Under the pieces are notes generated by a model. It was not told where the DNA came from. It ran no database searches and saw only the letters and a list, made by a program, of their open reading frames with translations. Shown here one piece after another: positions 32,158-35,855 of a stretch of DNA of 64,000 nucleotides (positions are counted from its first letter, which is position 1; each line of letters starts with the position of its first letter). Both the position numbers and the translations under genes were made by a program. Source of the stretch: Bradyrhizobium sp. ORS 278 (GTDB lineage Bacteria; Pseudomonadota; Alphaproteobacteria; Rhizobiales; Xanthobacteraceae); NCBI RefSeq assembly GCF_000026145.1, contig NC_009445.1, positions 5,672,501 through 5,736,500 of the forward strand. The letters run 5' to 3'.

Positions 32158-32469
32158 TCGATCGAGCATGCCGGCCTGCCGAGCGTGAGGCTGCCGGCGC
32201 TGCCACGCGTCGCGGTGCTGCCGGCAAGCGTCTCGATCTGCGATCCCTTCACCGCGCACGAGTTCGATGCCCGCGGCGTCGTGGCGCGACCCTTCACGCC
32301 GCGCATCGATTTCGAATTCGCCGCGGTATTTCCGCCGCAACGCAGCCCGTCGCCGGTCGCGCTCGATCTGGTCGAGACGGTTCGGCGCGCGCTGAATGCG
32401 CTCGCCAGACAGAACGATCAAAGAGAAAGCTCGGGGAGGCTTGGTGGGCGCACTAGGGCTCGAACCTAG
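32158..32469 (+). pseudogene. LysR family regulator 3' remnant
   Basis: The rightward frame resembles the last third of a LysR effector-binding domain: LPRVAVLPASVSICDPFTAH, FDARGVVARPFTPRIDFEFA and the final helix SPVALDLVETVRRALNAL. No DNA-binding half or start exists. The frame runs into the tRNA-derived repeat and stops inside it (TAG 32467-32469), so the natural tail has also been altered. With the RidA remnant it looks like what is left of a divergent ridA-lysR pair after an internal deletion. Confidence 0.6.
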
Positions 32470-32488
32470 GACCCGCTGATTAAGAGTC
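32441..32488 (-). repeat. Distal attachment-site repeat (48-bp copy of the tRNA-Lys 3' half)
   Basis: Identical over 48 bases to 35779-35826, which covers the tRNA-Lys 3' end from the CCA through the T arm and anticodon loop to the 5' anticodon strand. Identity stops abruptly on both sides. Such a tRNA-fragment direct repeat is the footprint left by a tyrosine recombinase that integrates at the anticodon loop. It marks the left end of the island. Confidence 0.9.
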
Positions 32489-32773
32489 CAGGCTTTATCG
32501 AGCAAATTCAATAGCTTAATATCTAAATGACAGAATTGGACCTGTGCAAAATCAAAGGGTTACGCATTGTTTTCTAAAATGATCAACCTCAATCTGAAGA
32601 TGAAAACCTTTCTTGCCACAAGCAAGTCGACCCTGGACTTGCGATCCAGCCTCGCTTCCACACCGAACGGAATGGACCACTCGACGGCCGCAAAAGCAAG
32701 AGAGTTTGCCAGCAATGCACGAGGTACCCTCTCTGAAACAGCCAATCGAGACCAGCCTTCTGCACCATGCGCA
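32489..32773. other. Island left end, no assigned gene
   Basis: AT-rich at 32500-32580, with two TCTAAA motifs (32522-32528, 32573-32579). A leftward frame ending near 32560 (contains VDLLVARKVFIFRLRLI) and a rightward frame from 32567 (MFSKMINLNLKMKTFLATSK) compete for the same DNA. Neither has a convincing start or a known family. They may be debris of former cargo. Confidence 0.4.
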
Positions 32774-35191
32774 CTAGTCCATATCAGCGGCAGTGGGCTT
32801 CCCTTGGATACGCCTCTCAAGCCGGGTTATGATCCGGCCAACGTCGGGATCTCCAAGCCGTTCGGCTGCATCGCGCAGTCTAGCTAGTGCGTCATCGAAT
32901 ACGCCATAATCGTTGATCATTCGGTAGTATTCAACGCCCAACTCGCCGTACGCGGCCAATAGAGACTTATTGAGCCCGAAGCGGTTCATTCCCATGAGGG
33001 CAAGTTCGCGCGCTTCTTCAAGAATTGTGATTCGATCCTCTTTCATTAAGCCAGGTGACCTACTGGCGCGCGCGACCATCAAGTCGACTTTGTAACGATA
33101 GACAGGTCCATCAAGTGAAAAATCCGACTCGAAAACGCGGATCTCAGTCTCCGCTCGGTCGTACTCGCCGCCTGAGATTAGATTGCGGATAAGCCTATGA
33201 CGCGGAACCCGCTCCCCTGGCGCGGTAGAAATCATCATGCGCAATAGCCTGTTCTGGGTCTCTTTGTCGGGAATGGAGGGAATGCCTGTGTCGATGTTGC
33301 ACAGCTCCTTGATGGTCATCACCTCGATGTCGTAAGTGGGAAGCAAGCTGCGGATTACCTGCTCGAAAAGAGCGACAAGTTTGTCTGTGTCGCTGAACTT
33401 GTACCGCGCCACAATGTTGGCAATAACCGTATGGCGGGCTCGCCACGCGTAGATGCTTTCTCGTACATCCACGTCGTATTCGGTGATGATGTCGACGAGA
33501 CCATCCAAGATGGCCGAGATCGTCTGTGGTGGGATGTTGAGCATCCGGACAAGCAACTGCCGATGTACGCGTACTCCCGCGTTCTCCATTGCAGCCACAT
33601 GACGATATATGTCTTGGAGCTGCGGCGTCAGGTCTGCGTACTCACGAAGGATAATGTCGTCAAAGTTTTCGGAGTCAAAAATGCTCCGCAGGCAGACGAA
33701 CATATCTGCTTCGCAGCGATCTAGAAGCCGGCGACGCTTCTCCGCTCGAGAAAAGCCAGTGAACTTTGGTTCTATAAGCCGCTTGATCGACTGGTTGACG
33801 TCAACCAGCTGCAAAAGTCGCTCGATCTCTTCGCCACTGAGTTGCGAAAGCCGAAATTCGGCTCCGAACTTGTAGAGCGTTCCAGACTTCACACGCGGAT
33901 TCCACTGATGCCGAGTCGAAACAAGCATTAGCTTGAGGTGGGGATTATCTGCAGCAAGCAGCCTGTCAGCCAGCTCATTGATCTCAAAGAGATGACTATG
34001 AGCATCGTCGACCAATAAAACTCCGCTTGAACCACCCTGTTGCAGCTCATGTGCAAGCGCAAACCACTCCTTTACAGCCAACGGCATATCGGTCTTGTGT
34101 TCCCAACAGTGGACGCCCTGCTGCCGCAATTTTTGCAGCACTTGGCGCGCCGCAGTAGTTTTCCCAACACCACTCGCTCCAAGAAGAATCGCGACTAGCT
34201 TCGTCTGGTCCACCAGCGTCTGAGCGATCTGTATACATAGAGCGCGCTCAAAGGTCAGCCCTGCGAGGATATCGGCGTGAGTTGCAGGACGCCCGTTGAA
34301 CATGGCGCCTACATCGCAGCGTCTCGGATCCGATGCATGGGCTACGTCGATAGTCGCGGGCCGGAGCACTGGACGTTTGTCTAAAGGATCGTCTGATGGT
34401 TCCGCCGCGACCTGACCAAATTTCTTGACCGTGAGCGCAGCAAAGAACTCATCTATTCCTCCGAAGCAGACCGTTAGACCTCGCGCCTCGAATATGCTGG
34501 CACGATCCTCGTCTCGCGAGTACAGAAACAAGATGATCTGCCCGCCGTTGTCCATTTGAGCATTCAGGTTGGCCGCCTTGTTAGTGATCTCGCGTATGTC
34601 GGGATCAGCCAGCGATTGCCCGATAATGATGAGGGTGGAGCCCGCGAGGTCAGTCTTCAAGCGGCCGTACAGCTGCTCGCGAAAAGCTGAGGTGAGATCA
34701 TAGTCGCTATCTGTGAGGATGATGCGGGACTGGTGTCCGTCCGCCACATCCTTTTCGATCGTCCCGTGCAATTTGAAAAGCTTCTGAGCCAAAGCATTCT
34801 CTTGACCACGAAAGTCAAAGTCGGACGAGTACACACTGATCGGCAGATTGCGACGGTGGTAGCACTGCTCCACAAGATCATCGTAGTTCGTCGTGAAGAT
34901 GCTTTTCCAGTTGTAGAGTGGAAGATTTAGCAAGCCCCCTGTGGGCTTCAGGGTTTTAAAAAGTTCGCGTAACGCCTCTATCAGCGAACGTCTTCCAGCT
35001 TTCCGCTCTGCCAACCCGCTTTGCTCCGGTAGCGTGAAGCCACTGTTCGGAACCATGAAGCGTTTAGCAAAGTGGTTTATGAGATCCTGGGATGTCGGCG
35101 CTCTGGACGGGATGGATGAGCCAGCACCGAACAGCAGAATTGTCCGGTCGGGCTGGATGCGGTTGATAACGCTCTGGACGCTCTCGACCAA
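32774..35191 (-). CDS. SIR2-STAND protein, probable anti-phage NADase (Avs5/type V AVAST-like)
   Basis: An 805-residue protein in three parts. Residues about 15-255 are a SIR2 domain: NAD-binding GAGSS (22-26), TTNYDD (100-105), KLHG with the catalytic-type His142, and GQSLADPDIR (191-200). Residues about 315-480 are a P-loop NTPase: Walker A GASGVGKT (338-345), Walker B VLLVDDAH (391-398) and a sensor-like VSTRHQW. The rest is helical, with a winged-helix-like part near 540-580 and TPR-like helices to the end. In known defence proteins, binding of a phage protein by the C-terminus oligomerises the NTPase and switches on NAD+ cleavage by SIR2, killing the infected cell. The start is TTG (35189-35191) after AGAGG; the next in-frame Met would lose the NAD motif. 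It is the only clear island gene. Confidence 0.85.
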   Translation of the reverse strand: MVESVQSVINRIQPDRTILLFGAGSSIPSRAPTSQDLINHFAKRFMVPNSGFTLPEQSGLAERKAGRRSLIEALRELFKTLKPTGGLLNLPLYNWKSIFTTNYDDLVEQCYHRRNLPISVYSSDFDFRGQENALAQKLFKLHGTIEKDVADGHQSRIILTDSDYDLTSAFREQLYGRLKTDLAGSTLIIIGQSLADPDIREITNKAANLNAQMDNGGQIILFLYSRDEDRASIFEARGLTVCFGGIDEFFAALTVKKFGQVAAEPSDDPLDKRPVLRPATIDVAHASDPRRCDVGAMFNGRPATHADILAGLTFERALCIQIAQTLVDQTKLVAILLGASGVGKTTAARQVLQKLRQQGVHCWEHKTDMPLAVKEWFALAHELQQGGSSGVLLVDDAHSHLFEINELADRLLAADNPHLKLMLVSTRHQWNPRVKSGTLYKFGAEFRLSQLSGEEIERLLQLVDVNQSIKRLIEPKFTGFSRAEKRRRLLDRCEADMFVCLRSIFDSENFDDIILREYADLTPQLQDIYRHVAAMENAGVRVHRQLLVRMLNIPPQTISAILDGLVDIITEYDVDVRESIYAWRARHTVIANIVARYKFSDTDKLVALFEQVIRSLLPTYDIEVMTIKELCNIDTGIPSIPDKETQNRLLRMMISTAPGERVPRHRLIRNLISGGEYDRAETEIRVFESDFSLDGPVYRYKVDLMVARASRSPGLMKEDRITILEEARELALMGMNRFGLNKSLLAAYGELGVEYYRMINDYGVFDDALARLRDAAERLGDPDVGRIITRLERRIQGKPTAADMD

Positions 35192-35779
35192 GCTGACACC
35201 TCTGAAGGATGATCGCTGGCATAACCCCAGCTGATTCTACAGCTTAGAGGAGCATAATAAGCGGAGCATATCCATATGCTTGTGCTAGGGGGAACCGGTC
35301 CAAATTCAGCTTGAAGTTTTGTTCTGCTGGATGGCAACGGCGTGCAGAGGGCAGAGAGGATCTCGAAAATGATTGAGCTCATCGCTGCTGTATCGGTGGA
35401 ACTAAGAGGCTCAGAACTGAGGTATCACGAAGAAAGTCAAGTTCTTACCTTCTATTGGCGGCGGACCGACTGAGCGTTTGTCAGCTGTTCTTCGCGGCAA
35501 CTCCAACTGCTACCGCGACCAGTGTATCCTTTCTACCTCCGGCTTCATTTTCAAAATTCCGCCAATGCCTATTATTGCAGGGTTTTCTCACAACGTTTGA
35601 AATCTGGAAGGCGGCAGAGTCGCCGCAGACAAATCCCACGCAGCATCGAAGTTCGCGATCGCCTGCCATGCGGTGTCTAAACTACATCTAAACAGGTTCA
35701 TTTAGACGAGTTTAGATGCGCCTGGAGCACCCGAACGCGAGTTGGTCGCCTGATAAGTCATTGATTTTGCAGAGGCTTT
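35192..35779. other. Island right end, no assigned gene
   Basis: About 590 AT-richer bases between the SIR2-STAND start and the tRNA. The near part should hold that gene's promoter. Short frames (78 residues rightward at 35455-35691; 62 residues leftward at 35481-35669) have no recognisable family. The last 100 bases hold the TTTAGA-type repeats listed separately. Confidence 0.45.
35675..35718. repeat. Cluster of four TCTAAAC/GTTTAGA half-sites
   Basis: Within 44 bases there are GTCTAAAC (35675-35682), CATCTAAAC (35685-35693), ATTTAGAC (35700-35707) and GTTTAGATG (35710-35718), alternating in orientation. CATCTAAAC and GTTTAGATG form a perfect 9-base inverted pair. It lies 60-105 bases inside the tRNA junction, where tyrosine recombinases and excisionases bind arm sites. 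Confidence 0.5.
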
Positions 35780-35855
35780 TGGTGGGCGCACTAGGGCTCG
35801 AACCTAGGACCCGCTGATTAAGAGTCAGCTGCTCTACCAACTGAGCTATGCGCCC
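35780..35855 (-). tRNA. tRNA-Lys (anticodon CTT)
   Basis: A 76-base cloverleaf with encoded CCA. Read leftward: acceptor GGGCGCA, D arm GCTC...GAGC, anticodon stem GCTGA/TCAGC around loop CTCTTAA (anticodon CTT), T arm CTAGG TTCGAGC CCTAG and the matching acceptor strand TGCGCCC. All stems pair. Its 3' half is the integration target of the adjacent island, which restores the gene on integration. Confidence 0.95.

Follow-up and report, generated by a model that had tools for sequence, protein, structure and literature searches.

A repeat-bounded SIR2-STAND gene without an integrase at tRNA-Lys(CTT) of Bradyrhizobium sp. ORS 278, with lone relatives at two other targets

Segments that keep attachment (att) sites at both ends, carry no integration or transfer genes and use a tRNA 3' end that also receives other islands correspond to the cis-mobilizable elements (CIMEs) described in the relevant sections of PMC5704250. 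A similar layout, cargo between direct repeats of the 3' end of an RNA gene, is found in the ssrA islands of Dehalococcoides, where the part of PMC3146451 drawn on here reports 15 islands without an integration module. We describe a unit of this kind in a 64-kb stretch (the window; coordinates are window positions) of the 7.46-Mb, one-contig genome of Bradyrhizobium sp. ORS 278 (G000; G and L numbers denote genomes and loci). It occupies 3.3 kb at tRNA-Lys(CTT), and its sole recognisable gene, P0001, encodes a SIR2-STAND protein. The kind of element is already known from these two accounts; the new point, by sequence, is that SIR2-STAND relatives are the sole occupants of two more repeat-bounded units, at tRNA-Pro and gshB.

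The unit differs from CIMEs as presented there in having one recognisable gene, no adjoining element that we could see, and a gene family that recurs alone at other targets. The ssrA islands, as far as the account considered here goes, differ in their serine recombinase, tmRNA target, tandem arrangement and cargo of reductive dehalogenase and other genes (PMC3146451). Defence islands of E. coli are likewise small and placed at hotspots, 18 of 41 of which lie within tRNA loci, and their means of movement is unclear. Those shown in the relevant part of PMC10121019 typically retain an integrase or recombinase gene, and how defence genes move when islands lack clear mobility genes is treated there as an open question. 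Clusters of attC sites lacking integron integrases (CALIN), as outlined in PMC11389934, combine recombination sites and cargo with a recombinase from elsewhere; our unit would work alike, except that the sites of the units here are tRNA and gshB 3' ends. Prophages and islands also gather at certain tRNA genes in the rhizobium Sinorhizobium meliloti, where the section consulted deals with phage-related sequences of 3.24-88.98 kb rather than with one-gene units (PMC11476347). In searches limited to open-licence PMC papers we found no description of such a one-gene defence unit or of a Bradyrhizobium tRNA-Lys hotspot.

The target gene, an intact tRNA-Lys(CTT) at 35780..35855 on the minus strand, is the only tRNA that ARAGORN finds in the window. 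Its 3' part, from the anticodon stem outward, makes up the tRNA-proximal copy of a 48-bp direct repeat (35779..35826, minus strand; the presumed attL core), and a displaced tRNA 3' part forms the distal copy (32441..32488, minus strand; the presumed attR core). The exact match between the two that a first-pass annotation of this DNA had reported was confirmed on recheck at 48 of 48 positions, with the copies 3,338 bp apart from start to start. That annotation had placed the element at 32441..35855. The start stands, and the end has to be moved, as 35855 is the 5' end of the tRNA and the repeat-bounded unit stops at 35826. In the whole genome an 82-nt tRNA query matched at four places: besides the complete gene and its 48-nt copy, there were two weaker matches at 77%. 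In 400-bp windows the GC content is 0.49-0.57 in the unit interior and 0.58-0.70 outside. Apart from P0001, the open reading frames (ORFs) in the unit are 80-106 aa long, and the only one of these subjected to a Pfam scan (35077-35382) matches no family. GC windows, ORFs and Pfam thus agree with the earlier description of a low-GC 3.3 kb with a single long SIR2-STAND gene. The claimed lack of a recombinase was borne out as well: an integrase profile hidden Markov model (HMM) detected no recombinase in the whole window at E up to 1, and tblastn with 26 integrase proteins against the two non-coding arms of the unit gave nothing below E 0.3. As in CIMEs, attL and attR appear to be kept at the two ends (48-bp repeat, inner motifs, empty site), and integrase and transfer genes are both absent by Pfam, integrase HMM and tblastn of the arms. 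Without an integrase of its own, the unit is neither an integrative and conjugative nor an integrative and mobilizable element.

Comparison with 29 relative loci at tRNA-Lys (L005-L033; the left side is missing from L031 and L033) yielded an empty site in two, from G246 and G199. In these genomes the left flank of the unit (window 32228-32488) joins the tRNA directly at 91% and 89% identity, respectively, the right flank (35779 onward) matches at 93% and 91%, and there is a single copy of the 48-bp sequence. Larger fetches of both (L045, L046) show the same continuity and provide natural empty sites for the integration point. In G002, G026, G231, G085 and G086 the same tRNA is occupied by other DNA. 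The 48-bp repeat and the empty sites of relatives show that the DNA was inserted at tRNA-Lys, which supports the integration in the anticodon region that had been suggested from the window alone. The first-pass annotation had proposed looking in related genomes for an empty site at this tRNA and for larger islands with an integrase; the former was found in G246 and G199, and the latter are present in other species. Next to the left end of the unit, two sequences that meet near 32159 in the window are separated by about 9 kb of extra DNA in G246 and G199, which also hold a further 195 bp or so near 32226; the segment 32159-32228 is, judging by this alignment, a probable deletion scar.

Both inner ends of the unit carry repeated motifs. 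Four TCTAAA sites, presumed integrase arm sites, lie on the tRNA side within 35676..35716 (35676 and 35687 on the plus strand, 35701 and 35711 on the minus strand), with a spacing of 10-11 bp within each pair. Two more presumed arm sites are on the distal side within 32522..32578 (32522 and 32573, both plus strand). The whole window has eight copies of TCTAAA on both strands, seven of them in the unit, six of which are within about 105 bp of an end. In addition, an inverted TAAGNNNTTGA motif is found at both inner ends, as TAAGTCATTGA (35754..35764, plus strand), which is common to the inner ends of other tRNA-Lys islands, and as its inverted partner TCAATAGCTTA at the distal end (32508..32518, minus strand). 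A search for this core-side motif as [TC]AA[GA]NNNTTGA found it immediately inward of the repeat at 25 of 58 distinct island ends; two sets of control stretches, 58 in each, had none. The 58 ends are 61 distinct repeats minus the two empty sites and the outer flank of the window; repeats with less than 150 bp of left sequence were dropped. At distal ends the inverse motif is weaker than its counterpart on the tRNA side (6 of 21, versus 2 of 21 and 0 of 21 in the controls). The window unit carries both. We infer from these sequences that the TCTAAA and core-side motifs act as integrase sites, and we read the ends as two att halves, apparently intact, that belong to an integration system of which the genus sample (265 genomes, own included) showed no other example.

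P0001 (32774..35191, minus strand) encodes 805 aa from a TTG start. A SIR2_2 domain (E 4e-29) is followed by nSTAND_NTPase5 (E 1e-11), both above the Pfam cut-off, which is the SIR2-STAND architecture. The protein contains the motifs TTNYD, HG, GASGVGKT and VDD, the first three of which correspond to motifs discussed for Avs5 (AVAST type 5) in the relevant part of PMC12931631. The Avs5 proteins outlined there resemble P0001 in their N-terminal SIR2 (PF13289), central STAND NTPase and C-terminal sensor region. They differ in that NG is frequent in Avs5, whereas HG is invariant in our 20-protein alignment of P0001 and 19 relatives with 36-77% identity. PADLOC matches are mainly on the SIR2 part, with ThsA the best (5e-17); the PADLOC Avs5 match (E 8e-4) covers the SIR2 part only, and PDB matches are also confined to it. 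Relatives were found in five of the 265 genus genomes, own included (E up to 1e-40), at 19 loci in a GTDB contig scan that covered close relatives only (one of them, L111, is G181 again), and at one locus in viral contigs. Among plasmids there were 34 matching records; in two of them, both Pseudomonas plasmids, the match (50.5%) extends over 80% or more of the protein. By analogy with known proteins that have the same domains, P0001 is a probable anti-virus protein acting by NAD+ depletion. Its C-terminal part would sense the invader, the STAND NTPase would assemble, and the SIR2 domain would destroy NAD+ and thereby halt phage growth.

Taken as a whole, we interpret the segment, with a probability of roughly 75%, as a recombinase-inserted, integrase-less, att-bounded unit of the CIME kind with SIR2-STAND cargo at tRNA-Lys(CTT). 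The element, a small circle or originally something larger, would have been integrated at the anticodon-loop region of the tRNA gene by a recombinase, presumably of the tyrosine class. Its own copy of the tRNA 3' part restored the gene, and the old copy was pushed to the far end. Any movement of the unit would need the integrase of another element. Such mobilisation in trans would be plausible; in its favour are the marks resembling att sites at either end, the matched ends of other units that lack an integrase, and lone relatives at two other targets. The first-pass annotation had offered two readings, a cargo unit mobilised in trans and the last remnant of a larger island, and the evidence here is compatible with both.

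A 46-nt piece of the tRNA-Lys 3' part (up to three mismatches) was present in 261 of the 265 genus genomes, and at least two copies were counted by hand in 141. Among the places listed (G001-G075, the last incomplete, and 83 chosen genomes), extra copies are often in the same orientation and no more than tens of kb apart. Many distal copies diverge from the tRNA only in the final bases, past AAGAG, a pattern consistent with crossing-over at the anticodon region. Ends can be grouped by a short inner motif: GTCGCAC (class A), TGTCGGAAT (B), CACCGTTTGA (C) and CCAACTG (D). Integrases adjoin ends of classes A, C and D, and five of these proteins match PHROGs phrog_1. Other elements at tRNA-Lys have the same end layout with different motifs; the window unit has none of the class A-D motifs and carries its own, TCTAAA. 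These sequence data mark tRNA-Lys(CTT) as an integration hotspot in Bradyrhizobium with at least four end-motif classes.

Nine segments of less than 8 kb at tRNA-Lys in other genomes were read, and an integrase is present in two (G151, G057). In the remaining seven the local integrase HMM found none. A Pfam scan of 23 ORFs from five of the seven (G082, G015, G062, G048, G107; G211 and G131, the same units as G015 and G107, were left out) gave no recombinase, at a threshold that also missed the divergent G151 integrase, and a very divergent integrase could therefore escape detection in small segments. End classes match in G015 and G211 (A/A), G107 and G131 (B/B) and G062 (D/D), the right end of G062 being called by eye after the script's stricter words had missed it. 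G048 and G082 were dropped as clean integrase-less units, as their end classes do not match. The G107/G131 unit is 90% identical over 7.6 kb, and at neither end does it have the same neighbour in the two species. The likeness of the G015/G211 pair (89%, tRNA flank included) ends at the distal repeat. Both pairs fit movement as a unit and also descent with later insertions alongside. As for the other single cargos with the same ends that the first-pass annotation had suggested looking for, integrase-less units with matched ends do occur at this tRNA, but the other 264 genus genomes gave nothing related to the inner ends of the window unit beyond matches of 28-36 bp. As to content, the G015/G211 units (L052, L065) hold a resistance-nodulation-division (RND) pump with a regulator and a hydrolase, and the G107/G131 units (L063, L064) transporter parts and an AMP-binding enzyme; each is present in two species.

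Relatives of P0001 also stand alone at other targets. In a Pseudorhodoplanes metagenome-assembled genome (MAG; L102) the gene is the sole occupant of a segment with tRNA-Pro(GGG) at one end and, at the other, 38 nt that repeat part of the 3' portion of this tRNA; the copies are 2,723 bp apart, and the GC content is 0.47, versus 0.61 for the locus. In a Xanthobacteraceae MAG (L118, region 7613-10941) it lies alone in 3,036 bp between the 3' end of a gene that we take to be gshB, recognised from its sequence without a family search, and a second copy of that gene's last ~293 bp (2 mismatches), which makes a protein gene a target for the same cargo. The integrase HMM found no integrase in either locus. 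With three unrelated targets each holding a member of this family as the only gene between repeats, its packaging into one-gene units appears to be a recurring outcome. A tRNA lies within 600 bp with its 3' end facing the gene in 5 of 23 distinct loci, some of them incomplete (window, L043, L101, L102, L104). L101 (Glu), L104 (Thr) and L043 (Ser) were rejected as one-gene units, since no tRNA repeat turned up on their far side; the L101 sequence extends only 2.9 kb past the gene. At L043, synteny with all 23 compared relative loci (L121-L143, of 30 fetched) breaks at the tRNA 3' end, which marks an island edge without fixing its size. An 18-bp direct match around the gene in G238 was read as chance.

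Several results count against our interpretation. Both inner arms, searched against the other 264 genus genomes, gave only matches of 28-36 bp (E 1e-4 to 7e-4), in G231, G234, G095 and G219; the G219 match belongs to the tRNA repeat itself. The pair pattern TCTAAACN{2,5}TCTAAA occurs in 11 of the 265 genomes, own included, which is fewer than for the reversed control. It is found at no other att site, and in the ORS 278 genome only at this one. The only outside match with tRNA-Lys in its locus (L094, G120) is about 1 kb off, in conserved flank and on the opposite side, and was taken as chance. Neither a cognate integrase nor matching ends were found in the 265 genomes; the helper may use other binding words or come from elsewhere. 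In the ORS 278 genome PF00589 is matched nine times; a tRNA is present in the 3.4-kb locus of four of these matches, and none lies at tRNA-Lys. The L102 and L118 genomes have 5 and 7 matches. In support of one-gene packaging, a test devised after the units had been seen, which asked for an exact direct repeat of at least 20 bp flanking the gene at a distance of no more than 1 kb to either side, gave a sole occupant in 3 of 19 SIR2-STAND loci, compared with none of 87 other frames of at least 300 aa in the same loci. These 19 loci, each with 0.9 kb or more of sequence to the left and right, are the window, 17 relatives from genomes and one from viral contigs. On the other side, 16 of them are not such a unit, including that of the closest relative, G238 (77%), and two of the three one-gene units come from MAGs. 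Finally, an assignment of P0001 to Avs5 was rejected, as the NCBIfam Avs5 model scores 17.5 bits against a cut-off of 1000.

The same observations can be arranged differently. An integrase-carrying island may have decayed by chance to the defence gene and both ends, leaving an immobile relic, to which we give a little less than an even chance. Integrase-bearing islands do exist at this tRNA, and a relative in G181 is part of a tRNA-Arg island of 17.6 kb that has an integrase and whose 69-bp direct repeat spans the gene at a larger distance. The ~9 kb present in G246 and G199 and missing beside the unit indicates that deletions happen here, and CIMEs are thought to originate through decay, according to the section of PMC5704250 used here. 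On the other hand, tblastn detected no integrase remnant in either arm, the motif sites at both ends appear undamaged, and decay would have to be repeated three times in one gene family, at three targets, each time leaving about 3 kb with its ends kept. Alternatively, the unit could be a functional one-gene hitcher that is regularly excised and integrated by the integrase of co-resident or incoming elements, a possibility that we hold tentatively and consider somewhat less probable than decay. It would account for the marks at both ends, the integrase-less matched-end units elsewhere at this tRNA, the G107/G131 unit between different neighbours and the one-gene units at three targets; however, neither a cognate integrase nor a second copy was found in the genus sample, and descent with new islands landing beside would explain the G107/G131 and G015/G211 pairs too.

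A broader version, in which recombinase-free one-gene SIR2-STAND cassettes form a recurring class placed by borrowed integrases at tRNA-Lys, tRNA-Pro and gshB 3' ends, seems to us rather unlikely. It is highly improbable that ordinary recombination, homologous or illegitimate, brought the gene in and that the repeat was left behind earlier by a different island. In favour of this, the unit's left flank has already undergone rearrangement; against it, the repeat copies coincide precisely with the limits of the foreign DNA, motif sites follow just inside both, and the site in relatives is empty with a single repeat copy. A recombinase-inserted unit of the CIME kind, natural, with one gene and apparently intact ends at a tRNA that serves several distinguishable integration systems, makes the question of movement testable by a small construct. 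Should a helper integrase excise it, a mobile immune unit could be as small as one gene with two short ends; if the cassette class were real, a single immune gene would itself be a mobile element.

Two minor observations concern the same tRNA. A 2.4-kb tRNA-Lys unit in G151 (L062 11549-14034) holds little beyond a single, divergent gene for an integrase and is thus the opposite of the window case. The exact 48-bp tRNA-Lys piece is also present in two virus-classed IMG/VR contigs (L034, L035), next to class D words in L035 and to a further type, a repeated CTTCCT, in L034.

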